Below are positions 1,459-44,008 of a stretch of DNA of 64,000 bases, piece after piece. The stretch comes from Cyclobacteriaceae bacterium (GTDB lineage: Bacteria > Bacteroidota > Bacteroidia > Cytophagales > Cyclobacteriaceae), in the NCBI GenBank assembly GCA_019638255.1, contig JAHBUD010000001.1:124001-188000 (forward strand), written 5' to 3'. The notes under the pieces were generated by a model. The model worked only from the letters and a program-made list of their open reading frames with translations, searched no databases and had not been told where the DNA came from. Positions within the stretch are counted from its first letter, which is position 1. Each line of letters starts with the position of its first letter. A program made the translations under genes and the position numbers.

Positions 1459-2436
1459 ATGGAAGAAGGAATATTTGAAAGCCGCGTTGACTTGAGCAAC
1501 CTGAACGAAAGCGTAAAAAAAATTCGCGAAGAAATAAGCCATGTAATTGTTGGTCAGCAGGAAATGATTGATTTGCTAATCACCTCCATTCTGGCCGATG
1601 GGCATGCGCTTATTGAAGGTGTGCCGGGAGTGGCCAAAACACTTACTGCCAAATTACTTTCAAGAATAATTGATGTTGAATTCAACCGTATTCAGTTCAC
1701 CCCTGACCTGATGCCCTCGGATATCATTGGTACCTCGGTATTCAACATGAAAAATTCAGAATTCGAATTCAAAGCCGGGCCGGTGTTCTCCAATATTGTG
1801 TTGATTGATGAAATCAATCGTGCCCCTGCCAAAACACAAGCTGCACTTTTTGAAGTAATGGAGGAGCGCCAGATTACCGCAGATGGCACAACGTATAGCA
1901 TGGAGCATCCATATATGGTGGTGGCTACTCAAAATCCTATTGAACACGAAGGCACCTACCGGTTGCCAGAAGCCCAATTGGATCGCTTTCTTTTTAAAAT
2001 CCAGGTTCATTACCCTTCCTTGGATCAGGAGTTCTCAATCATCAACGGCCATCACCAGCGCAAAGGTCATCCGCCCATTGAAGATGTTAAGCCGGTGTTA
2101 ACTGCCGAAAAGATTAAACAATATCGGAATGCTGTTCAGCACGTACATGTTGAAGAAAACCTAATTAAATACATGGCCCAAATTATCCATGAAACGCGAA
2201 ACAACCCTTCGCTTTTTCTAGGAGCCTCGCCACGCGCTTCGGTTGCGCTGCTCAACAGCTCGAAAGCCTATGCTGCCATCAACGGCCGTGATTTTATTAC
2301 ACCTGAAGACATAAAATTTGTGGCTACACCTGTGTTAAGACATCGTATCATGCTAACGCCTGAAAAAGAAATGGAAGGCATTACAGCCGATGAAGTAATT
2401 CAGCAGATTGTAGAAAAGGTTGAGGTGCCTCGTTAA
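1459..2436 (+). CDS. MoxR-family AAA+ ATPase
   Basis: A cytoplasmic ATPase of 325 residues, the normal length for the MoxR/RavA group. The Walker A motif is GVPGVAKT at residues 54-61, and Walker B is LIDE at 115-118 followed by [18 protein letters not shown]. The sensor region [12 protein letters not shown] follows, and the C-terminal helical lid contains [11 protein letters not shown]. MoxR ATPases act as chaperone-like remodellers, usually for VWA or DUF58 partners encoded beside them. Here the partner gene begins 8 bases downstream. A second, separately located MoxR paralogue is at 60240-61208. The substrate cannot be read from the sequence. Confidence 0.93.
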
Positions 2437-2444
2437 CTACACTT

Positions 2445-3776
2445 ATGAAGCTTGTTAAAAATCTTTATTTGAACAACAGGCTGTTCATTTCCCTTACCGG
2501 GGTAGTAGTTTGCTTTATTTTAAGTTTTATTATCGATGGATTTGTATGGATACCACAGGTTTTATTCTTTGGCTTGTTGGCTTTTATATTGGCCGATGTG
2601 CTACTGCTCTTCAGAACGAGAAAAGGTATTCATGGACATCGTTTCACACCCGAGAAACTTTCCAATGGCGATGAAAACGAGATCAGAATTTATCTTGAGA
2701 ATTTCTATCCCTTTGTAGCTGCCGTTGAAGTGATTGACGAAATCCCTCATCAATTTCAAAGACGCGATTTAGCGTTTAGGATTAAACTATCTACCCTTGA
2801 AAGTAAAACCATAACCTATTCTTTACGTCCTGTAAAACGTGGTGAATATTCATTCGGTGCGGTGAATGTGTTTGTCAACTCTCCGCTCGGCTTGCTGAAA
2901 CGAAAATTCAGCTTTTCGCAGGATGCGTTGGTGCCGGTTTATCCATCCTACATACAAATGCGCAAGTACGAGTTGCTTGCCATCTCCAACCGGCTTACCG
3001 ACAGTGGGATTAAAAAGATCAGGCGCATCGGACAGAATACAGAGTTTGAATTGATCAAGGAGTACGTACAAGGAGATGATATTCGAACCATAAACTGGAA
3101 AGCCACCGCCAGAAAATCGCAGTTGATGGTTAATCATTATCAGGACGAGCGGTCGCAACAGGTTTATTCCCTCATCGACAAAAGCAGGGTAATGCAAATG
3201 CCCTTTAATGGCCTAAGCCTTATGGACTACGCCATTAATGCTTGCCTGGTCATCAGCAACATCGCCATAAAAAAATCGGACAAAGCCGGATTGATCACTT
3301 TTCAGGATAGCGTTGGAACTACGTTGGCCGCAAGCCGGGGGAACCGTCAAATGGCTCAACTGCAGGAAGTGCTCTACAACCAAAAAACCGGATATCGGGA
3401 ATCGGATATTTCTGTTCTCTACAGTCACATCCGAAGAAAAGTAACCCAACGAAGCTTGCTTTTGCTGTTTACTAATTTTGAATCACTGTATGGTATGCAA
3501 CGTCAGCTTCCCTTCCTGAAGAGCCTGGCAAACCAGCACTTATTGGTGGTGATTTTCTTTGAAAACACTGAGCTACGAACCTTCATTGACAACCCGGCTA
3601 AAAACCTGAAGGAAATTTATCACAAAGCAATAGCCGAGAAATTTGCCTACGACAAAAAGCTAATTGTAAAAGAACTGCAAAAAAACGGCATTCAAACGAT
3701 TCTAACCCCACCAGAGCAGCTCACCGTTAACACTATAAATAAATACCTTGAGCTGAAGGCACGAAACATGATTTAA
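2445..3776 (+). CDS. DUF58 domain-containing protein
   Basis: The protein has 443 residues. Two membrane helices lie near the N terminus (about residues 12-30 and 35-53). A beta-rich region with GEYSFGAVNVFVNSPLGLLKR follows, and then the DUF58 signature around residues 208-226, GDDIRTINWKATARKSQLMV. DUF58 includes a vWA-like fold, and the proteins are the usual partners of MoxR ATPases. It follows the MoxR gene by 8 bases and closes the operon that begins left of the window. A 111-base gap then separates it from the secreted protein gene. The role, possibly in cell-envelope maintenance or stress survival, is only inferred from other MoxR/DUF58 systems. Confidence 0.88.
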   Translation: MKLVKNLYLNNRLFISLTGVVVCFILSFIIDGFVWIPQVLFFGLLAFILADVLLLFRTRKGIHGHRFTPEKLSNGDENEIRIYLENFYPFVAAVEVIDEIPHQFQRRDLAFRIKLSTLESKTITYSLRPVKRGEYSFGAVNVFVNSPLGLLKRKFSFSQDALVPVYPSYIQMRKYELLAISNRLTDSGIKKIRRIGQNTEFELIKEYVQGDDIRTINWKATARKSQLMVNHYQDERSQQVYSLIDKSRVMQMPFNGLSLMDYAINACLVISNIAIKKSDKAGLITFQDSVGTTLAASRGNRQMAQLQEVLYNQKTGYRESDISVLYSHIRRKVTQRSLLLLFTNFESLYGMQRQLPFLKSLANQHLLVVIFFENTELRTFIDNPAKNLKEIYHKAIAEKFAYDKKLIVKELQKNGIQTILTPPEQLTVNTINKYLELKARNMI

Positions 3777-3887
3777 TCTGACGTCTTACAAAGAGTCAAA
3801 CTTTTTTTATCTTTCATTTCTCAAATCAGATAAGCAGGGACAGATACCGCCCATTGAACGATTTGAAAGCACTATAAACTTATACTC

Positions 3888-6800
3888 ATGGTTAGACTCT
3901 ACAGTTATTTCGGGCTTTGCTGCCTTCTTTTACTAAGCGCGCTAAGTGCTGAAGCCCAGCGATTAATGGGAATAAAGGTTACCACCCCTACCATTTGCTA
4001 TGCTCACACTGAGGACAATCCGTGCACAATTCCTCCGCCTGAAGAATTTATGAAAATGCTGGGGGGTAATCGCACCAAAACAGCAACCATTGAAATTAAC
4101 TATAATCCGGGCTTTACTCCTGCTGCTACTGCTGCTTTCGATTATGCCATTGGTATCTGGGAATCTCTGATCGATTCACCCGTTCCGATAAAAATCGATG
4201 CATATTGGTCATCCCTTAACCCTGGAGTATTGGGAGGTGCCTTGTACACTGCTGCCTATGCCAACTTTGATGGCGCACAGAAACTTAATGTATTCTATCC
4301 TGTTGCAATGGCCGAAAAGATTGCCGGACGGAACTTAAACGGTGACAATCCCGATATTTTTATTCAGTTTAACAATACTGCTGCATGGCACTATGATCCA
4401 ACCACAACTCCCTTTCCAGGTCTTTATGACTTGGCCACCGTTGTTCTTCATGAAATTGGTCATGGTCTTGGCTTTGCAGGCACTTTTAACGCAACCGGTA
4501 GCCAAGGATCGGTTGGATTACAATCAACAGGTGTTCCTATTATTTATGATGTTCCGGTAGAAAACTTCAGTGGCGAAAATCTTATTCAAAATTTTGCATC
4601 TCCTTCAACAGCACTGGGCAGCCAACTCGTGAGTTCCGATATTTTTTTCAACTCCGCATCTGCTCCTCGAGCAAAACTATATGCGCCCTTTGAATTCAAC
4701 AGAGGGTCTAGTATCAGTCATCTTGACGAGTCAACTTTTAATGGCACACCAAATGCACTCATGACACCCCAGGTTGCACCTCAGGAACAAATCCATTCTC
4801 CCGGGCTGGCCTGGGAAATGTTGAAAGACCTCGGGTGGGAAATTGTAAAAATTAATCACCAGCGATTAACCGACACCGAAGATCTGGTGGGACCGTATGA
4901 AGTTACCGCTACTATTTTTGCCGACAACGGCTTTGATGCATCAAGCCTGAAACTGAATTACACGACCAATGGTACTGATTTTACTGAAGTTGACATGACC
5001 CCTACCGGAGTTCCCAACGAATTCTCTGCATCGATTCCGTCTAGCGGAGCCACCCAGGAGTATGGATACTTTATATCAGTAGATGATACCAATGGAAGAC
5101 AATTTGTAAATCCTGGCAAGATTGTCCGAAAACTTAACACCGAACTTCAGAATATCTTTGTTTTCTCTGCCGGCCCCGATACTAAACCACCTGTGATTAC
5201 ACACTCAGCCAAGCCATTCATGCTCGAAGGTGAAACATCACTTCCACTTGAGGCAAGGGTAACAGACAATATTGGTATAGCTTCAGTTGTACTTGAATAT
5301 TCCGTTAACGGAGTTTCGCAAACCAACCAGAATTTCGTTCTGCAAGCTCCTGAGGTTGATTCGATTTATTTGACAACAATCAATTTTGGCGCAGGGGTAT
5401 CCAACGGTGATGTGATTGCTTATCGAATAGTAGCCACCGATAATTCATCCAACAGCAACGCTCGTACAGTGCCTGCCACCGGTTTCTTTACCCTCAATGT
5501 AGTAGGCCTCGAACCAACACAAGATTCGTACGCTAATGATTTCAACACACCATCAAACGACTTCTTCGGAAACGGATTCAGCATAACACAACCTGCAGAA
5601 TTCAATGATGGGGCCATTCATTCTGATCACCCCTATCCGGAAGGTAATACTTTTCCAAACCAGGAGATCAATTTAATCTATCAGTTAAAAATTCCTATTC
5701 GGGTAAAAGCCAGCGAAGCAACCGTTGTATTCGATGAAATAGTGTTGGTGGAACCCGGTGAACCCGGAACGGTTTTTGGAAATCAGGAGTTCTGGGACTA
5801 CGTAATCGTTGAAGGCTCTAAAGATGGTGGACTAACCTGGATTCCTATTGCAAATGGCTACGATTCACGTGACAATAGTGCCTGGCTTGCCCGGTACAAC
5901 AGCGCCATATCCGGAAATAATTCTACTGCTGTGGGGGATCCAACATTATACAGAACCCGAACACTTGACTTGCGGACTAAATTTAGTACTAATGATGAGG
6001 TTGTTCTTCGCTTCCGTTTGTACAGCGATCCCTTCGCTGCCGGGTGGGGATGGGCCATAGACAATTTGAAAATTCAAATTGATGACAATCCTCCAACCGT
6101 GCTGCATGATCATATTGACTACCTGACTGACAATGCAGACGAGTTAAAAATTATTGCCAAAGCAACGGATGCCAGCGGAATTGAGGCGTTGAAAATAGAA
6201 TACAAGGTGAATGGGGGCACCGTTGAAGAAGTGAACTTTATTGTTAACCCACCCGCAAGCCAATATGAATTCTCGTTAACTGGCTTGGCCGTATTATCAC
6301 CGGGCGATCGAATTGAATACCGGATCGTTGCCCTCGATAGTGTTGGCAATGAAGGTTTCTTTCCCCCTTCCGGAGATTTTATTCTAGTGCCCATCGTGGC
6401 ATTTGGCTCCCCAATTGGAACTTACGCGAACAATTTCAATTCGTCATCCTCCGATTTCGTTGGCAACTTTTTCAGCATTGCACAACCCAGTGGATTCAAC
6501 AATGGCGCTATCCATTCTGCACACTTCTATCCAAACGGAATTGGTCTGGATAAAACCTCCTCGTTCAGTTATACACTCACCAAACCCATAACCATCTCAG
6601 CTTCCAACTCACTCATTCGCTTTGATGAAATCGTAATTGTTGAGGGGCATGGATCCGGTGTTGTGTTCGGCAACCCAGCTTTTAAAGATTATGTCATCGT
6701 TGAAGGCTCAAAAGATGGTGGAGCAACCTGGAGCAGGCTTTTGGATGGCTACGACATTGTTGGAGGTTTGCAAGTGTGGAGCAATACCTTTTTTTCAGGA

Positions 6801-35456: not shown

Positions 35457-37874
35457 ATGTGGACATCACTAGCACATTTTATCATCAACTACAGGCTGCC
35501 ATTGTTTATCGCGATTGCATTAATCACGGTGTTTATGGGATACCACGGCCAAAAGGTGGAGATGAGCTACGACTTTCGTGGCACCGTACCGGCCAACGAT
35601 CCGGAACAAATTTTCTTCACTGAATTTAGAGAACAGTTTGGTGAAGACGGTGGCATTGTTGCCATCGGGTTGAAAGACAGCAGCATTTATCAGTACAAAA
35701 ATTTTGAAAAACTAAGGGAGCTCTGCATTTCCCTTAAACAAATCCCCGGTGTGAACGATGTGATTTCTCTCCCTCAAATTAAAATGATGGAGAAGGATAC
35801 CGCCCGCAAACAGTTTAAACTGGTGGATATTTTTCCGGGTAAAGTGCGAAGTCAGCGTGAGTTGGATAGTTTGCTCAAAGAAGCAGCAAAACAAAAGTTT
35901 TACCTGGGGCAAATCACCAATCAGCAAAATGGTGCTATAGCAATTCTGATATCCATCAACAAGGATTATCTCAACTCCTCCCAACGCATTGAAGTTACCA
36001 ATGAAATCATTAAACGCGGTGGACACTTTACCAATAGCACCAACATCCAGTTACACTATGCCGGCCTTCCTTTCGTGCGTTCGGTTATTGCCGCCCGGGT
36101 AAGTGCCGAGCTTAAAACCTTTCTGGGGCTATCCGTTTTAGTAACGGGCATTATCCTGTTGATCTTCTTTCGGTCGTTCAGGGCCATGATCTTCCCGCTG
36201 ATTGTAATCGGCATTGTGGTGGTGTGGGTCATTGGCTCCATTGTGCTGCTCGGTTTTAAAATAACATTGTTGAGCGGAATGATCCCGCCCATCATTGTGG
36301 TAATTGGCATACCCAACGCCATTTACCTGACTAACAAATACCACAGCGAATACAATTCGCACGGCAATAAAATGCTTGCTATCACCCGGGTTATCCGAAA
36401 AGTTGGCGTGGCTACCTTCTTAACTAACCTAACCACAGCCATCGGCTTCCTGGTATTGCTCACAGCCGACATTACTATTCTGCGTGAATTTGGTATTGTA
36501 GCCGGGCTAAATGTAATGGCCACTTTTGTGGTGAGCCTTATTTTAATTCCAGGTGTATTCTCCTGGATGCCCCCGCCTTCGCCCAAGCACCTGCGCCACC
36601 TGAATTTTAAACTCATCGATAAACTGCTTACCGGCATTGACCTTACCGTGCATCGCCACCGGGCAATGATTTATTCCGTTACGCTGGTATTCATTGCCTT
36701 TGCCTTTATCGGCATATACAAAATACATACGGTATCCTTCATGGTTGATGACCTTCCGGAAAACAGTACAGAAAAAAAAGACCTGAAGTTTTTTGAGGAG
36801 CACTTCAGCGGAGTTATGCCACTTGAAATTGTGGTGAACACCGGAAAGAGAAGAGGAGTGATTGAAGTAAAAAATCTTCAGAAGATTGATGAGTTTGAAC
36901 AGTTTCTTGATTCCCTGCGGAATATTTCAAAGCCAGTGTCTATCGTAAGCTTTGTTAAGGCAGCCAAACAGGCTTTTTACAACAACAACCCGGCACGCTA
37001 TACGCTGCCCGACAACCGTGAACGAAATTTCATTCTACCTTACTTGAAAGGTCAATCCGATGCCTCCGGACTTTTCAATGCTTTTGTTGATTCTACCCTG
37101 CAAACCATGCGCATTTCTTTGCAGGTAGCCGATATTGGCTCCGATAAAATGGATTCACTTATCAATCAGGTAATACAACCAAAAATAGACACCTTGTTTG
37201 GTGGCACCGATATCAGCGTAAAGATTACCGGTACAACTCCGTTATTCATCAAAGGAAATTCATTTCTCATTTCAAACCTGAAGGGGAGCTTGATGCTTGC
37301 CTTTGGGTTGATTGCCATCACTATGGGCTTTTTGTTTGCCAATGTCCGCATGATTGTCATCGCCTTAATTCCTAACGTTATTCCCATGATGATCACGGCT
37401 TCGTTAATGGGTTACTTTGGTGTGCCACTGAAGCCGAGCACCGTACTCATCTTCAGCATTGCCTTTGGTATCTCGGTTGATTATTCCATCCACTTCCTTG
37501 CCAAGTACCGCCAGGAACTTCACGCAAAAAAATTCTTTATTCCTATTGCCGTAAGCGCCACCATACTGGAAGTAGGGAAAAGTATGGTGTACACCTCCAT
37601 CGTGCTGCTGGCCGGGTTCATCATTTTTGCATTCTCTTCCTTTGGCGGAACCATTGCCTTGGGTATACTTACGTCCATCACGCTTTTCATTTCCATGTTT
37701 ACCAATCTTATCCTCCTCCCTTCGCTGATCATGACATTCGATCGTGCTAAGCATCAAAAAGAGGGTCGCATGCTGATTGAAGAGGTTGATCCGGGCTTTT
37801 ACTCGGAAACCGAAGATGAAGAAATTGACCTGAACAAAATCCGGATCAGCAACCGGCACCCGGCAGCGGAGTAG
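35457..37874 (+). CDS. RND/MMPL family exporter
   Basis: An 805-residue inner-membrane protein with two similar halves, each with one helix, a large extracytoplasmic loop, then five helices. The first helix is at about 9-27. The first helix block lies at about 220-385 and contains FLTNLTTAIGFLVLLTADI. The second loop spans about 430-625, and the last helix block contains SIAFGISVDYSIHFLAKYRQE. This is the MMPL/HAE3 type, typically moving lipids, hopanoids or hydrophobic compounds. No membrane-fusion or outer-membrane factor gene lies nearby. It ends three bases from the convergent vsr gene, the left edge of the restriction-modification island. Confidence 0.88.
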   Translation: MWTSLAHFIINYRLPLFIAIALITVFMGYHGQKVEMSYDFRGTVPANDPEQIFFTEFREQFGEDGGIVAIGLKDSSIYQYKNFEKLRELCISLKQIPGVNDVISLPQIKMMEKDTARKQFKLVDIFPGKVRSQRELDSLLKEAAKQKFYLGQITNQQNGAIAILISINKDYLNSSQRIEVTNEIIKRGGHFTNSTNIQLHYAGLPFVRSVIAARVSAELKTFLGLSVLVTGIILLIFFRSFRAMIFPLIVIGIVVVWVIGSIVLLGFKITLLSGMIPPIIVVIGIPNAIYLTNKYHSEYNSHGNKMLAITRVIRKVGVATFLTNLTTAIGFLVLLTADITILREFGIVAGLNVMATFVVSLILIPGVFSWMPPPSPKHLRHLNFKLIDKLLTGIDLTVHRHRAMIYSVTLVFIAFAFIGIYKIHTVSFMVDDLPENSTEKKDLKFFEEHFSGVMPLEIVVNTGKRRGVIEVKNLQKIDEFEQFLDSLRNISKPVSIVSFVKAAKQAFYNNNPARYTLPDNRERNFILPYLKGQSDASGLFNAFVDSTLQTMRISLQVADIGSDKMDSLINQVIQPKIDTLFGGTDISVKITGTTPLFIKGNSFLISNLKGSLMLAFGLIAITMGFLFANVRMIVIALIPNVIPMMITASLMGYFGVPLKPSTVLIFSIAFGISVDYSIHFLAKYRQELHAKKFFIPIAVSATILEVGKSMVYTSIVLLAGFIIFAFSSFGGTIALGILTSITLFISMFTNLILLPSLIMTFDRAKHQKEGRMLIEEVDPGFYSETEDEEIDLNKIRISNRHPAAE

Positions 37875-37877
37875 TTG

Positions 37878-38366
37878 CTATTTCTTTGTTTGATCATCAG
37901 CAAGAAAATCCAACACCTGTTTTAAACAAGCGCCTAATTCTCCCTTGACCTGAAAATCCCAAAATCGAAAGACTTTAAAACCCATGGACTCAAGTTGCTT
38001 GTTGGTCTGTTTATCGCGCTGAATATTCCTTTCAATTTTCGGTATCCAAAAGCCGGTATTCGATTTTAGTCTTTTCTTTTTTTGCTTCCAATCATGACCA
38101 TGCCAAAACGACCCATCAACAAACACGACAAACTTTAGCGCTTTGTTAGATATATCGGGCTTGCCTGGCAAAGACTTACAATGTATCCTGTAACGGACGC
38201 CAGCGTTCCACAGGGCCTTTCTGAAGATACGTTCTGGCTTAGTGTCCTTGCCCGAAATATTTGCCATCATTTTACTGCGCAGCTTGGTGGTGTAAAAGCC
38301 TTCGGCCTCTTCAAACCGCGGGACTTTGATCGGCAGCTCTATATAACTTTTGGGTTTTGGTTGCAT
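37878..38366 (-). CDS. vsr: Very short patch repair (Vsr) endonuclease
   Basis: The 162-residue strand-specific T:G mismatch nicking enzyme repairs deaminated 5-methylcytosine beside a C5 methyltransferase. Conserved features are TKPERIFRKALWNAG, the catalytic D71 in LPGKPDISN, and FVDGSFWHGHDW at 82-93. Only about 37 residues precede the conserved region, normal for Vsr. It is divergent from the methyltransferase gene with a 64-base shared promoter region. The restriction system predicts that it acts at methylated GGNCC-like sites instead of Dcm sites, which is inference. The sequence is more A-rich than its flanks. Confidence 0.92.
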   Translation of the reverse strand: MQPKPKSYIELPIKVPRFEEAEGFYTTKLRSKMMANISGKDTKPERIFRKALWNAGVRYRIHCKSLPGKPDISNKALKFVVFVDGSFWHGHDWKQKKKRLKSNTGFWIPKIERNIQRDKQTNKQLESMGFKVFRFWDFQVKGELGACLKQVLDFLADDQTKK

Positions 38367-38383
38367 CCTGTTTCTGTTCTGAT

Positions 38384-38391
38384 CAACAATA
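38384..38391 (-). promoter_or_regulatory. Possible vsr -7 element
   Basis: On the minus strand this reads TATTGTTG, one mismatch to TAnnTTTG, 17 bases before the vsr ATG. It lies one base from the methyltransferase -7 candidate on the other strand, so the two divergent promoters would overlap. Confidence 0.25.
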
Positions 38392-38392
38392 C

Positions 38393-38400
38393 TATATTTG
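38393..38400 (+). promoter_or_regulatory. Methyltransferase -7 element
   Basis: TATATTTG fits TAnnTTTG perfectly. A TTTC at 38371-38374 sits 18 bases upstream, one base off TTTG. The leader to the methyltransferase ATG is about 30 bases and contains the repeated TAAGCT sites. Confidence 0.45.
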
Positions 38401-38410
38401 TAACCATGTG

Positions 38411-38426
38411 TAAGCTTTACTAAGCT
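38411..38426 (+). repeat. TAAGCT direct repeat and AGCTT-N4-AAGCT inverted repeat (possible operator)
   Basis: TAAGCT occurs at 38411-38416 and again at 38421-38426, one helical turn apart. The same bases also contain arms AGCTT (38413-38417) and AAGCT (38422-38426) around TACT. The site lies between the -7 box and the ATG of a methyltransferase with its own HTH domain, where a repressor would block expression. Function is inferred from position only. Confidence 0.4.
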
Positions 38427-38430
38427 GGTT

Positions 38431-39678
38431 ATGAAAGAGTACTATTCCTTATCCGAAGTTGCCGATATGTTGGGAAAAAGTAAAGAGACCCTCAGAAGGT
38501 GGGACAACAGCGGCAAACTCGCTGCAGTGCGCGAGCCTATGAGTAATTATCGTGTTTACAAAAGAGAACAACTAAAAATATTCGATGAACTAGGGTTTCT
38601 ATTCAACACACCAAAAGCAACCAACAACGAAGTTACTGCTGATCATGAATATACTGTTTTGGAATTATTCGCGGGCGCAGGAGGACTGGCCATTGGATTG
38701 GAAAATGCTGGCCTCAAGTGTGTCGCATTAAATGAGATTGATCATTGGGCAGCCGAAACCTTGAGACAAAACAGGCCGCAGTGGAATGTTATTGAAGACG
38801 ACATCCGAAACCTTAGTTTCAAGCATTTAAAGGGAAAAGTAGACGTTGTAACCGGAGGGTTTCCCTGCCAGGCATTTAGTTATGCTGGCAAAAAACTAGG
38901 CTTTAAAGATGCCCGGGGAACTTTGTTTTATGAATTCGCCAGGGTTGTCAACGAGGTTAAACCACTTTTATGTGTCGGGGAAAATGTGCGAGGCCTATTG
39001 AATCACGATCGGGGCAGGACACTCCAGGGAATGAAATCCATTCTGGATGAAATAGGTTACAAACCACTCGATGAGAAAATATTGAAAGCCATATTTTACA
39101 AAGTTCCCCAAAAAAGAGAACGCTTGATTCTAATTGGAATTAGAAAAGACATAGAGATCACTTTCAACTTCCCCAAACCCCATAACAAAATTTATAACCT
39201 CAAAGATGCATTAAAAGCTGGTGAGCTTTTCACAACAGATGTACCAAAATCGAATGGATCAGCTTATCCAAAACACAAAAAAGAAATTCTAGCTAAAGTA
39301 CCCCCAGGTGGTTATTGGCGGGATCTCCCGCTTAAACTTCAAAAAAAGTACATGCAAAAAAGTTTCTACCTGGGCGGAGGCAAAACAGGCATGGCCAGAA
39401 GAATGAGTTGGGACGAACCTAGTTTAACATTAACATGCAGTCCTGCGCAAAAACAAACTGAACGCTGCCATCCTGATGAAACGCGTCCATTTACCGTTCG
39501 GGAATACGCCAGAATCCAAACTTTCCCTGACAATTGGGCTTTTGCCGGCTCGGTTTCTCAACAATACAAGCAGATTGGAAATGCAGTGCCCGTAAACCTG
39601 GCCACTGAATTAGGTTACTCCATAGTCGATTTTTTAAACAACGTTTATAAACACGATGTACTTAAAAAGCGCCCATAA
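38431..39678 (+). CDS. DNA (cytosine-5)-methyltransferase with N-terminal MerR/excisionase-like HTH
   Basis: The protein has 415 residues. Residues 1-54 form a helix-turn-helix of the MerR/excisionase kind (YSLSEVADMLGKSKETLRRW). The C5 methyltransferase starts near residue 75: motif I LELFAGAGGLAIGL (F80-G84), motif IV GGFPCQAFS with catalytic C146, motif VI GENVRGLL, motif VIII KRERLILIGI, and motif X QIGNAVPVNLATELG. The target-recognition region is about 290-350. It protects host DNA from the nuclease gene that follows 64 bases downstream. N-terminal HTH extensions of methyltransferases such as M.SsoII repress their own promoters, so autoregulation is plausible. The A-rich base use suggests transfer. 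Confidence 0.94.
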   Translation: MKEYYSLSEVADMLGKSKETLRRWDNSGKLAAVREPMSNYRVYKREQLKIFDELGFLFNTPKATNNEVTADHEYTVLELFAGAGGLAIGLENAGLKCVALNEIDHWAAETLRQNRPQWNVIEDDIRNLSFKHLKGKVDVVTGGFPCQAFSYAGKKLGFKDARGTLFYEFARVVNEVKPLLCVGENVRGLLNHDRGRTLQGMKSILDEIGYKPLDEKILKAIFYKVPQKRERLILIGIRKDIEITFNFPKPHNKIYNLKDALKAGELFTTDVPKSNGSAYPKHKKEILAKVPPGGYWRDLPLKLQKKYMQKSFYLGGGKTGMARRMSWDEPSLTLTCSPAQKQTERCHPDETRPFTVREYARIQTFPDNWAFAGSVSQQYKQIGNAVPVNLATELGYSIVDFLNNVYKHDVLKKRP

Positions 39679-39731
39679 ACCTAGTCGTTTTAATAGGTCG
39701 CTTGGGTTAACCTTTCTTTCTTTGTACAAAG
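39679..39731 (+). promoter_or_regulatory. Inverted-repeat cluster upstream of the endonuclease gene
   Basis: Three inverted repeats lie in the 64-base gap. ACCTA at 39679-39683 pairs with TAGGT at 39694-39698. GGTTAACC at 39705-39712 is a perfect 8-base palindrome. CTTTGTACAAAG at 39720-39731 is a perfect 12-base palindrome ending 11 bases before the endonuclease ATG. They could be operators timing nuclease expression after methylation; this is inferred from position. Confidence 0.4.
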
Positions 39732-39742
39732 CGTAATTAAAA

Positions 39743-40450
39743 ATGCCGTTTCTCAGTTGGATTGATGATGCAAGCCTGAAAGATGCCGTTAGCCTTATCT
39801 TAAAAAAAGCTAAAGAGGCTAAAGAAAATGCTGAGGGTAATTTTGGCAAAAATGTTGTCGACCCGTTTTCTGCATTATTTGAAATAGCAGGTTTCTCACT
39901 CGATTTTGAAACATGGCATAAAAGTGAAACCACACGACAAGCCCAAAAAACGTTGCAAAACCATGTAGGTGACTTTCACCAGAATATACTTGGAGCAGTT
40001 AATGGCTGGGAAAACATGAAGAAGGGTCAGGTGATAGACCTTGTTTCGTCAGAGAAAAAAATTATTGCCGAGATCAAGAATAAGTACAACACAATATCAG
40101 GAGGTAAACTCTCTGACCTTTATTATTCTTTGAACAATCTCGTCATGCCCAAGTCAAGCATCTATAAAAACTTCACAGCTTACTATGTTGCTATAATACC
40201 AAAAAGTCCTGATCGGTACGATAAGCCCTTTACCCCATCTAACAAAGACAAGGGGGAAAAATGTGCAGCAAATGAAAATATTAGGGAAATAGACGGAGCA
40301 AGTTTTTACACATTGGTTACCGGAGATCCAAACGGACTGGAGAATCTTTTTGACGTGCTTCCCGATGTCATCAAAATATGCTCCGATAACAAATACATCA
40401 TTAAAGATAAACGTAAGCTAAAAGCCTTTTTCAGTACCGCTTTCGGATAG
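39743..40450 (+). CDS. Eco47II-family type II restriction endonuclease (predicted GGNCC)
   Basis: The 235-residue protein matches the Eco47II/Sau96I-like endonuclease family: NVVDPFSALFEIAGFSLDFE near the N terminus, NHVGDFHQNILGAVNGWE, and the nuclease core VIDLVSSEKKIIAEIKNKYN. In the core, D99, E110 and K112 form a PD-(D/E)xK-like set. Eco47II recognises GGNCC, so the same target is predicted here, although specificity can drift within a family. It lies 64 bases downstream of the methyltransferase on the same strand and is AT-rich like it. The end of the gene is 111 bases from ileS, the right edge of the island. Confidence 0.88.
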   Translation: MPFLSWIDDASLKDAVSLILKKAKEAKENAEGNFGKNVVDPFSALFEIAGFSLDFETWHKSETTRQAQKTLQNHVGDFHQNILGAVNGWENMKKGQVIDLVSSEKKIIAEIKNKYNTISGGKLSDLYYSLNNLVMPKSSIYKNFTAYYVAIIPKSPDRYDKPFTPSNKDKGEKCAANENIREIDGASFYTLVTGDPNGLENLFDVLPDVIKICSDNKYIIKDKRKLKAFFSTAFG

Positions 40451-40561
40451 TTCTTTTTCGCGAGAAAGTCACCGATCACGATTATCCGTAATTCGCATTT
40501 CGTACCTATCTTTACGCCCTTATTTAATTGAAAATCAACGTCTACAGGCTGTTTTTAAGTG

Positions 40562-43500
40562 ATGAGCGAAAAGTATAAAGAACCCCACACCGTTAACTAC
40601 GCACAACTGGCATCCGAAATTCTCGATTTCTGGAAGCGCGAAAAAATCTTTGAAAAATCTGTCTCCAACCGGGACGGTGCCTCAGCTTTTACCTTTTACG
40701 AGGGACCCCCCTCCGCTAACGGAACGCCCGGCATTCACCACGTCATGGCGCGCACGGTTAAGGATATATTCTGTCGGTTTAAAACCTTGCAAGGATACCA
40801 GGTTAAGCGCAAAGGCGGCTGGGATACACACGGACTGCCCGTTGAACTTCAGGTAGAAAAGCAACTGGGCATTACCAAAGACGACATCGGAAAAAAAATC
40901 TCCATTGAAGAATACAATCAAAAGTGCCGTGAAACAGTAATGATGTACAAAGATCAGTGGGATGACCTGACCATGAAAATGGGCTACTGGGTTGACCTGA
41001 ACGATCCCTACATCACGTACGACTCCAACTACATTGAGAGCCTGTGGTGGATACTCAAACAATTGCACGAGAAAGGATTGTTGTACAAAGGCTACTCCAT
41101 TCAGCCTTATTCACCGGCTGCAGGCACGGGCCTAAGTTCGCACGAATTGAATTTACCGGGTTGCTATAAAGATGTGAAGGATACATCGATCGTGGCGCAG
41201 TTCAAGGTAACGCGAAATGAAAAGTCTGACTTTTTATTTAATGCTACCCCGGGTGAAGTTTACATTCTCGCGTGGACCACTACGCCCTGGACACTTCCTT
41301 CCAACACTGCATTAGCCGTAGGCGAAAAAATAACCTACGTACAGGTTAACACATTCAATGTGTATACCTATCAGCCGGTTAGCGTAATCCTGGCGAAAGA
41401 TCTGTTTGGAAAGTATTTCCCGGAAAAAAATAAAGACCTCAAGCTTGAAGATTATAAACCCGGTGACAAAGCCATTCCGTTTGAAGTTGTTCAGGAGTTT
41501 AACGGAAAACAATTGGTTGGCATCCGCTACGAACAGCTTATGCCGTACGTACAACCATTATACGATGTTGATAAAGCCTTCCGGGTGGTTGCAGGGGATT
41601 TTGTTACCACCGAGGATGGAACAGGTGTAGTGCACACCTCACCTACCTTTGGTGCCGATGACTTCCGGGTAGCAAAACAAAACGGCATCCCTGCGCTTAC
41701 GGTGAAAGATGAAGCAGACAATGAAGTGCCTACAGTTGATCGCAAGGGAAAATTCGTAAACGAAATTGGTGCTCAGTTAAAAGCAGGCGTTGATAAATTC
41801 AACATTAAAACACACAAACCCCTAACCGAAAACGACTTCTACGTAAAAAACTATACCGATGAAAATGAATCTCATCCGGATTACAAATCAACGGATGTGA
41901 TCATCTCCATCATTTTGAAAGAAGAAAACAAAGCTTTTAAAGTAGAAAAATATGAACACACCTATCCGCATTGCTGGCGAACGGATAAACCCGTGTTGTA
42001 TTATCCGCTCGACTCATGGTTTATCAAAACCACTGCGTTGAAAGACCGCATGGTTGAGCTGAACAAAACCATTAACTGGAAACCTGAATCGACCGGATCA
42101 GGCCGTTTTGGCAACTGGCTTGAAAACCTGGTCGATTGGAACCTGTCGCGTTCACGCTATTGGGGAACTCCGCTACCGATTTGGAGAACAAAAGATGGAA
42201 AAGAAGAAATCTGCATTGGTTCGGTTGAGCAATTACAAAACGAAATTGCGAAAGCCAGGCAAGCAGGAATCTCAAACCCGGAACACGCAACACGCAACAC
42301 GAAACTTGATCTACATCGTCCCTATGTCGATGAAATTGTTCTGGTTAGCGATTCCGGCCAGCCCATGTATCGCGAAACCGATTTAATTGATGTGTGGTTC
42401 GACAGTGGCGCCATGCCTTATGCACAGTGGCATTACCCATTCGAAAATAAAAACATCTTCAAAAACAGTTATCCTGCAGATTTTATTGCCGAGGGTGTTG
42501 ATCAAACTCGTGGGTGGTTTTTTACGCTGCATGCAATCGCCACCATGCTGTTCGATAGTGTTGCCTTTAAAAATGTAATTTCCAACGGCCTTGTACTCGA
42601 CAAAAACGGAAACAAGATGTCGAAGAGCAAAGGCAATGTGGTAAACCCGTTCGAGACGATTGATAAGTTCGGCCCCGATTTGGTGCGCTGGTACATGATT
42701 GAAAATGCACCCCCTTGGGATAACCTTAAATTCGACTTTGATGGCATTTCCGAAGTTCAGCGCAGGTTCTTTGGAACATTAATCAATACGTACTCCTTTT
42801 TCGCGCTGTATGCTAACATTGATGGCTACGTGAAAGATGAGATGAATAATTCGTTACAAAGCGATCTTACCCATCTTGACCGATGGATTATTTCGAAACT
42901 TCAAACGCTAATCATAGAAGTAACAAAAGCATACGAAGAGTATGAGCCTACCCGCGCAGCACGCGCCATACAGGAATTTGTTAACGATCATCTTTCCAAC
43001 TGGTATGTGCGCCTGAATCGGAAACGCTTCTGGCAACCTTCGCAACGCGGTGAATTGTTTGTCGATAAAAAAGCCGCTTACGATACCCTCTATGAATGTT
43101 TGATGGTAACAACGCAACTGATGTCGCCTGTTGCACCGTTTATTTCGGAGTGGTTGTATAAAAGCCTTACCGATAACATCCGCAACAGCGCAAAAGCCAA
43201 CAACACCCCATTGCAGCATGAATCCGTGCACCTTACCAATTTGGTAAAAGCAGAAGTCAATCGCATGGATGCTGACCTGGAACAATCCATGGATTACGCT
43301 CAACGCATTTGTTCGTTGACGCATGCGCTGCGTAAAAACAGCAAAATCAAAGTGCGCACACCGCTGCAACGGATACTTTTACCAGTGTTGGATGAAAAAT
43401 TTGCCGCACGCATCCGTGGTGTTGAGGAAATCATTAAAGCTGAAGTGAACATCAAGTCTGTTGAATACATTGATGACACTTCCGGATTGCTGGTGAAAAA

Positions 43501-44008
43501 AGTAAAACCCAATTTCGCCAAACTGGGCAAACAGTACGGTCCGAAAATGAAAGATGTATCTGCGGTAATCAATTCCTTTAATCAGGACGACATCAATAGT
43601 ATTGAAAAGAATGGCACGCTTACCAAAGGTGGCTTTGATATCGAGCTGGGAGATGTATTGATATCCTCGGAAGATATTCCCGGCTGGTCGGTAGCCAGCG
43701 AAGGGGGAATAACTGTAGCGCTTGATGTTACGCTTACGGATGATCTTAAGCGTGAAGGCATTGCACGCGACTTTGTTAACCGTATTCAAAATCTTCGGAA
43801 GGACATGGGCCTGGATGTGTTGGATAAAATCGCCATTGAGGTAGAACGCAACGGTGAATCCATGACTTCAGCCATTTCTGAATTTAAGCAATATATTAGC
43901 ACCGAAACACAGGCGGTAAGTCTTGAAATACGGGACAGCGTTAATCATGCAGCAGAAGTTGACATGGATGAGAGTATACTAAAAGTGTTGATACGGGTTA
44001 TTAAATAA
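40562..44008 (+). CDS. ileS: Isoleucyl-tRNA synthetase
   Basis: A class Ia synthetase of 1148 residues, in the long (eukaryote-like) size class. The HIGH motif appears as GIHH in NGTPGIHHVMAR, and the KMSKS loop is KMSKSKGN. Editing-domain features include AWTTTPWTLPSNTALAV, and the anticodon domain follows RWYMIENAPPWDNLKFDFDG. In-frame GTG at 40559 and ATG at 40562 are adjacent; the ATG is preferred. A short variable linker between the catalytic blocks is encoded by a 7-nt tandem repeat (42282-42302) giving HATRNT. lspA begins ten bases downstream. Confidence 0.96.
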   Translation: MSEKYKEPHTVNYAQLASEILDFWKREKIFEKSVSNRDGASAFTFYEGPPSANGTPGIHHVMARTVKDIFCRFKTLQGYQVKRKGGWDTHGLPVELQVEKQLGITKDDIGKKISIEEYNQKCRETVMMYKDQWDDLTMKMGYWVDLNDPYITYDSNYIESLWWILKQLHEKGLLYKGYSIQPYSPAAGTGLSSHELNLPGCYKDVKDTSIVAQFKVTRNEKSDFLFNATPGEVYILAWTTTPWTLPSNTALAVGEKITYVQVNTFNVYTYQPVSVILAKDLFGKYFPEKNKDLKLEDYKPGDKAIPFEVVQEFNGKQLVGIRYEQLMPYVQPLYDVDKAFRVVAGDFVTTEDGTGVVHTSPTFGADDFRVAKQNGIPALTVKDEADNEVPTVDRKGKFVNEIGAQLKAGVDKFNIKTHKPLTENDFYVKNYTDENESHPDYKSTDVIISIILKEENKAFKVEKYEHTYPHCWRTDKPVLYYPLDSWFIKTTALKDRMVELNKTINWKPESTGSGRFGNWLENLVDWNLSRSRYWGTPLPIWRTKDGKEEICIGSVEQLQNEIAKARQAGISNPEHATRNTKLDLHRPYVDEIVLVSDSGQPMYRETDLIDVWFDSGAMPYAQWHYPFENKNIFKNSYPADFIAEGVDQTRGWFFTLHAIATMLFDSVAFKNVISNGLVLDKNGNKMSKSKGNVVNPFETIDKFGPDLVRWYMIENAPPWDNLKFDFDGISEVQRRFFGTLINTYSFFALYANIDGYVKDEMNNSLQSDLTHLDRWIISKLQTLIIEVTKAYEEYEPTRAARAIQEFVNDHLSNWYVRLNRKRFWQPSQRGELFVDKKAAYDTLYECLMVTTQLMSPVAPFISEWLYKSLTDNIRNSAKANNTPLQHESVHLTNLVKAEVNRMDADLEQSMDYAQRICSLTHALRKNSKIKVRTPLQRILLPVLDEKFAARIRGVEEIIKAEVNIKSVEYIDDTSGLLVKKVKPNFAKLGKQYGPKMKDVSAVINSFNQDDINSIEKNGTLTKGGFDIELGDVLISSEDIPGWSVASEGGITVALDVTLTDDLKREGIARDFVNRIQNLRKDMGLDVLDKIAIEVERNGESMTSAISEFKQYISTETQAVSLEIRDSVNHAAEVDMDESILKVLIRVIK
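42282..42302 (+). repeat. 7-nt tandem repeat inside ileS
   Basis: Three consecutive copies of AACACGC (the last ends in A) lie in frame in ileS and encode the residues EHATRNT in a linker. The unit is not a multiple of three, so gain or loss of one copy would frameshift an essential gene. Confidence 0.8.

Follow-up and report, generated by a model that had tools for sequence, protein, structure and literature searches.

A Vsr-bearing Type II restriction–modification island, probably directed at GGNCC, between an MMPL transporter gene and ileS in a Cyclobacteriaceae bacterium

Three genes lodged between an MMPL transporter gene and ileS in a Cyclobacteriaceae genome very probably constitute a chromosomal Type II restriction–modification (R–M) system for GGNCC: one that is old in its lineage, was inherited or exchanged at this single site, and comes with its own Vsr repair and autoregulation. 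They occur in ‘the window’, by which we mean the whole 64,000-nucleotide stretch of DNA analysed here; the genome it comes from is termed G000, and other G and L numbers designate the genomes and loci with which it was compared. As we picture the system, the methyltransferase would place 5-methylcytosine (5mC) in the GGNCC sequences of the host, on the inner C by analogy with characterized GGNCC enzymes, and the Eco47II-family nuclease would cleave the unmethylated GGNCC of incoming DNA. Deamination of 5mC would give rise to T:G mismatches, beside the T of which the divergent Vsr would nick, with Pol I then restoring C:G. The MerR-like HTH domain of the methyltransferase probably binds a 29-bp AACC/GGTT element that overlaps the gene's own likely transcription start, and this binding would limit expression of the methyltransferase, and perhaps of the divergent vsr as well.

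The island begins right at the stop codon of the MMPL transporter gene (35457-37874; left junction, 37875-37877), as seen when G000 and G004 are aligned with congeners in which the site is empty. In an alignment with G004 and the empty-site congeners, homology with the empty site returns at about 40483-40488, upstream of ileS (40559-44008), and the right junction is assigned to 40451-40488. The vsr gene, on the minus strand (37878-38366), encodes a very short patch repair endonuclease of 162 aa belonging to the V.NgoAXIII class (TIGR00632, PF03852). On the plus strand follow a C5 methyltransferase gene (38431-39678; PF00145), the product of which has an N-terminal MerR/HTH_17 domain in codons 4-51 (PF12728, PF00376), and the gene for a 235-aa Type II restriction endonuclease of the Eco47II family (39743-40450; PF09553). 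The intergenic spaces on either side of the methyltransferase gene measure 64 bp each, and all three genes are intact. A sequence-only reading had already recognized here a complete Type II unit with a Vsr of its own, flanked by the MMPL transporter gene and ileS; family searches bear out both flanks and all three island genes, whose matches lie far above curated cut-offs. The island contains no transposase or integrase, and scans for sigma-70 promoters and terminators returned signals at chance level only.

The nuclease matches PF09553 (RE_Eco47II) with 188.7 bits against a cut-off of 25.9. Its active site is PD-(D/E)xK-like: Asp99 and Lys112 are invariant among 30 homologues, and Glu110 is invariant in a six-row alignment. 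No solved relative was found by sequence in a search of the PDB. The predicted structure (pLDDT 90, pTM 0.86) finds its best PDB structure match in EcoO109I (E 4e-5, probability 1.00) and then, more weakly, in AvaII (E 0.1-0.4). Both are alike to the island nuclease in modelled fold, and both have targets built on GG-N-CC, AvaII recognizing GGWCC. EcoO109I differs from the island enzyme in its longer target, RGGNCCY, and in forming a family of its own (PF14511). The fold match to EcoO109I is supportive of cleavage at GGNCC by the island nuclease; on membership of PF09553 alone, GGNCC is a label. The known Eco47II (PF09553) systems resemble the island in nuclease family, in the adjacent C5 methyltransferase and in the predicted GGNCC target; unlike them, the island also has a Vsr, and its methyltransferase is fused to an HTH and accompanied by a conserved, operator-like element. 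The nuclease was not found in phage records, and a scan of the genome contigs with the nuclease alone gave no matches.

Further evidence on the target comes from the methyltransferase, which matches PF00145 (residues 74-398; 283 bits) and, above cut-off, HTH_17/MerR (residues 4-51). Its target recognition region, located by alignment with Eco47II-linked methyltransferases, spans about codons 262-350 on the plus strand. When 84,980 species genomes were scanned with an alignment of the methyltransferase and the best 80 loci were kept, nearly all proved to be from Bacteroidota, with 68-82% identity. The neighbouring nuclease belongs to the Eco47II family in 40 of these loci, to the EcoO109I family in 31 and to the TdeIII family in 3, or 74 of the 80 altogether. 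Eco47II and TdeIII cut GGNCC and EcoO109I cuts RGGNCCY, and across these pairings the target-recognition region is 74-91% identical to that of the window in the examples compared. From the interchangeability of the three nuclease families we infer that methyltransferase and nuclease probably have a common target. The literature offers parallels: in 14 tested cases the motif of a 5mC methylase was the site of its partner nuclease (PMC8112702), and in Mycoplasma hominis a homologue of MAGa3950, an M. agalactiae methylase with measured 5mC activity at GGNCC (PMC9465063), is paired with an Eco47II homologue (PMC10305163). A Mycoplasmopsis cynos methyltransferase that is linked to an Eco47II-family nuclease is 54% identical to the window's. 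The earlier proposal of GGNCC as the target is in this way supported from three directions, the nuclease family, its interchange with two other families whose targets contain GGNCC, and the modelled fold.

A related but different target, e.g. RGGNCCY or GGWCC, is an unlikely alternative that deserves to be weighed. The EcoO109I-family nucleases found beside close relatives of the methyltransferase would be accounted for if the methylase preferred RGGNCCY, and the resemblance of the modelled nuclease to AvaII points towards GGWCC. Against this, the window nuclease is a strong member of PF09553, a family that takes its name from Eco47II, an enzyme that cuts GGNCC; the relatives paired with Eco47II-family nucleases have target-recognition regions that are equally similar to the window's; and a mycoplasma methylase of this kind, MAGa3950, was measured to be a 5mC methylase of GGNCC (PMC9465063). 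We also considered depletion of GGNCC as a footprint of the system and rejected it: the observed/expected ratio is 0.65-0.66 in G000, G004 and G008, the sequence being equally under-represented with the island and without it.

Expression of the GGNCC methyltransferase would be governed by its own upstream DNA. The operator-like element, AACCATGTGTAAGCTTTACTAAGCTGGTT (38402-38430, plus strand), abuts the methyltransferase ATG and contains an outer inverted repeat, AACC...GGTT. Just before it on the same strand, and read from the sequence, lies TATATTTG (38393-38400), which we take to be the −7 box of the gene, the Bacteroidota form being TAnnTTTG. The middle half-site of the element is GCTT in the window and GGTT in most relatives, and the general form is AACC-N9-GGTT-N8/9-GGTT, 29-30 bp in length and abutting the methyltransferase start. 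The outer repeat occupies this position in 82 of the 88 loci, compared with 0.6% in shuffled sequence, and when the DNA upstream of the methyltransferase is aligned among distant loci, conservation is confined to the stretch that abuts the start codon. Psychrobacter and Vibrio plasmid methyltransferases, the HTH regions of which are only 27-31% identical, lack the element. On the simplest reading it is probably an autoregulatory operator bound by the fused HTH, although a leader or a signal for translation might in part explain why sequence so close to the start codon is conserved. Autoregulated C5 methyltransferases with an N-terminal HTH are familiar (e.g. M.SsoII, M.MspI and M.ScrFI), and the island enzyme resembles them in the fusion of HTH to methyltransferase and in the operator-like repeat at its own promoter. 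It differs in that its HTH is of the MerR/HTH_17 type, its half-sites are about 13 bp apart and its regulation is predicted. The conserved element at the methyltransferase start is what is new here.

The Vsr protein matches TIGR00632 with 134.6 bits (cut-off 97.85) and PF03852 with 96.1 bits, and its structural model matches the crystal structures of E. coli Vsr, 1cw0 and 1vsr. Met34, Glu45, Asp71, Asp84, Trp88, His89, Trp107 and Asp118 are invariant. In alignment, the catalytic residues of the E. coli enzyme (Asp51, His69 and Glu25) correspond to Asp71, His89 and Glu45, and its intercalating residues (Met14, Phe67, Trp68 and Trp86) to Met34, Phe87, Trp88 and Trp107; the zinc-site residues Cys66, Cys73 and Cys117 correspond to Ser, Trp and Asp. 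The gonococcal Vsr of this class lacks these cysteines as well, which makes the zinc site a mark of the E. coli class and not of the whole family. The island Vsr is of the Cys-less form and has Asp at the position of His64, and a gonococcal Vsr with the same two features is 45% identical to it. That protein is probably V.NgoAXIII, an identification made from the Cys-less/Asp signature rather than from annotation. V.NgoAXIII, for which Asp at the His64 position is stated in the literature, recognizes T:G in all contexts (PMC6116569). The island Vsr thus resembles the V.NgoAXIII class of Neisseria gonorrhoeae in this Asp, in its lack of zinc cysteines and in the catalytic and intercalating residues that are kept. 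It differs in adjoining its genome's only C5 methyltransferase match, whereas the V.NgoAXIII class serves several. The sequence-only reading had supposed that, were GGNCC the target, Vsr would have to act at T:G mismatches in GGNCC sites, unlike the Dcm context of E. coli Vsr; because the protein belongs to the class of V.NgoAXIII, which takes T:G in any context, a new specialization of this kind is probably unnecessary.

PF00145 and PF03852 each have a single match in G000 and in G004, and neither has any in G008. In G000 the sole matches are the island methyltransferase and the island Vsr, which would make deaminated GGNCC the natural substrate of this Vsr, and the linkage of the two genes argues that the one serves the other. 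Vsr occurs beside Eco47II, EcoO109I and TdeIII systems among the best 80 loci, and another relative adjoins a HaeIII-family system. It is improbable that the Vsr homologue is instead an extra nuclease, e.g. one that damages DNA upon loss of methylation and so stabilizes the methyltransferase gene. Such a role has been proposed for Caulobacter VsrA, which damages DNA once its methylase is lost (PMC12907096), and the absent zinc-binding cysteines and a DUF559-like match at the C-terminus would be in keeping with it. The island protein nevertheless passes the Vsr-specific TIGR00632 and keeps the intercalating aromatic and catalytic residues, and its Cys-less form with Asp at the His64 position is common to the 45% identical gonococcal Vsr, which is probably the active V.NgoAXIII. 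In ortholog alignments, C-to-T changes in G000 at 166 GGNCC sites numbered 2 at the inner and 12 at the outer position. These counts are small, and with no inner excess, directional C-to-T decay at GGNCC was rejected. The lack of an inner excess fits working repair, and absent methylation would give the same result.

Comparison with relatives bears on the age of the putative GGNCC system. In 11 congeners (G008, G016, G007, G001, G010, G013, G015, G006, G003, G014 and G005) the MMPL gene is followed directly by ileS, with a gap of roughly 70-140 bp. G004 carries the same island in the same place. In G012 and G002, the MMPL–ileS gap holds other or extra DNA; that of G012 (L051, about 1973-4867) contains unrelated genes, including one for a 135-aa protein resembling a PIN-domain nuclease, and the site may acquire DNA repeatedly. 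The G004 copy is intact, its three proteins are 83, 93 and 88% identical to those of G000, and its DNA is about 80% identical, matching the flanking genes. A recent arrival private to G000 is ruled out by this copy, at the same site and with about flank-level divergence; the island is therefore old, and was either lost later in some lineages or transferred long ago. Of the acquisition suggested earlier, then, insertion stands, given the 11 empty sites, and recent or private arrival does not.

Judged by genome-sample identity, G004 goes with G008 and G016 (82-86%) and G000 is more distant (76-77%). Either the island is ancestral and both G008 and G016 have lost it, or it was exchanged long ago through its flanks; the ileS tree, in which G000 does not stand beside G004, is compatible with lineage loss and with old exchange alike. 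As a separate observation, the MMPL protein of G000 is closest to those of G004, G008 and G016 (92-93% identity) and its ileS groups with G001 and G007, a discordance that may point to recombination in the neighbourhood of the island. The A-rich base use by which the island had been set apart from its neighbours holds, and is mild. With a GC content of 40.9% the island lies at the 5.5th percentile of the genome, for which the mean is 43.75% (sd 1.8), and A on the coding strand lies in the 96th-99th percentile in all three genes; GC3 is low in the methyltransferase and nuclease genes (6th percentile), not in vsr (73rd).

The exact order Vsr–methylase–Eco47II nuclease recurs in L152 (Shiella aurantiaca LB-30), L155, L156, L159, L161 and L162, and since the cassette is found in other Bacteroidota, the system belongs to an already known kind. 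G019, which belongs to the same family, has a second copy (L056, 5500-8079) with frameshifts in the methyltransferase and nuclease genes and an intact vsr. That the window's island is itself degenerating, with nuclease or methyltransferase inactive, is very unlikely: the frameshifted G019 copy and the lack of a footprint in GGNCC statistics would fit such decay, but the three window genes are intact and retain their catalytic residues, and the G004 copy is intact with proteins 83-93% identical.

We lean, by a little, towards a wider view in which a chassis common to the Bacteroidota combines a self-controlling, HTH-fused GGNCC methyltransferase, its operator at the start codon, with swappable nucleases of the Eco47II, EcoO109I and TdeIII families and an optional Vsr of broad specificity. 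The three nuclease families that serve one methyltransferase type would make a natural case for study, and the element is a candidate operator that can be put to the test across a large family of Bacteroidota methyltransferases. With one C5 methyltransferase adjoining one Vsr by family search, and close relatives that have neither, the island could also be a clean setting in which to study very short patch repair in bacteria other than E. coli.

A second feature of this DNA is far stranger than the island, and may deserve its own study more. Against an expectation of 149 (sd 12), the window has no CGNCG at all, and 464 kb of G000 contain a single one against an expectation of about 716. We found no report of this void in the literature searched. 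Whole-genome counts of WWCGNCGWW are 0-7 for 12 of the 17 congeners (control, about 800-1,400) and 50-180 for the other five (G002, G009, G012, G005 and G014); G000, G004, G008, G016 and G015 are among the avoiders. In the wider family, about a dozen scattered genomes have 0-13, and the rest about 190-2,200. In the ileS tree G002 and G012 are nested among the avoiders, as though these lineages no longer had the selecting agent and were regaining sites. A nuclease that cuts unmethylated CGNCG is the obvious idea. PF02945, PF01844, PF13391, PF14279, PF04480 and PF03852 were rejected as the agent, since their occurrence does not track the void, and 5mC decay is excluded as the cause in G008, a genome that shows the void but lacks a C5 methyltransferase. 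The residual sites inspected were CGSCG in five cases of five, and CGWCG in none. In Cytophagales/Flammeovirgaceae-type loci (L152, L153, L187, L194, L215, L217 and L224) CGNCG is likewise absent and CGNNCG present, and the void may extend beyond the genus.
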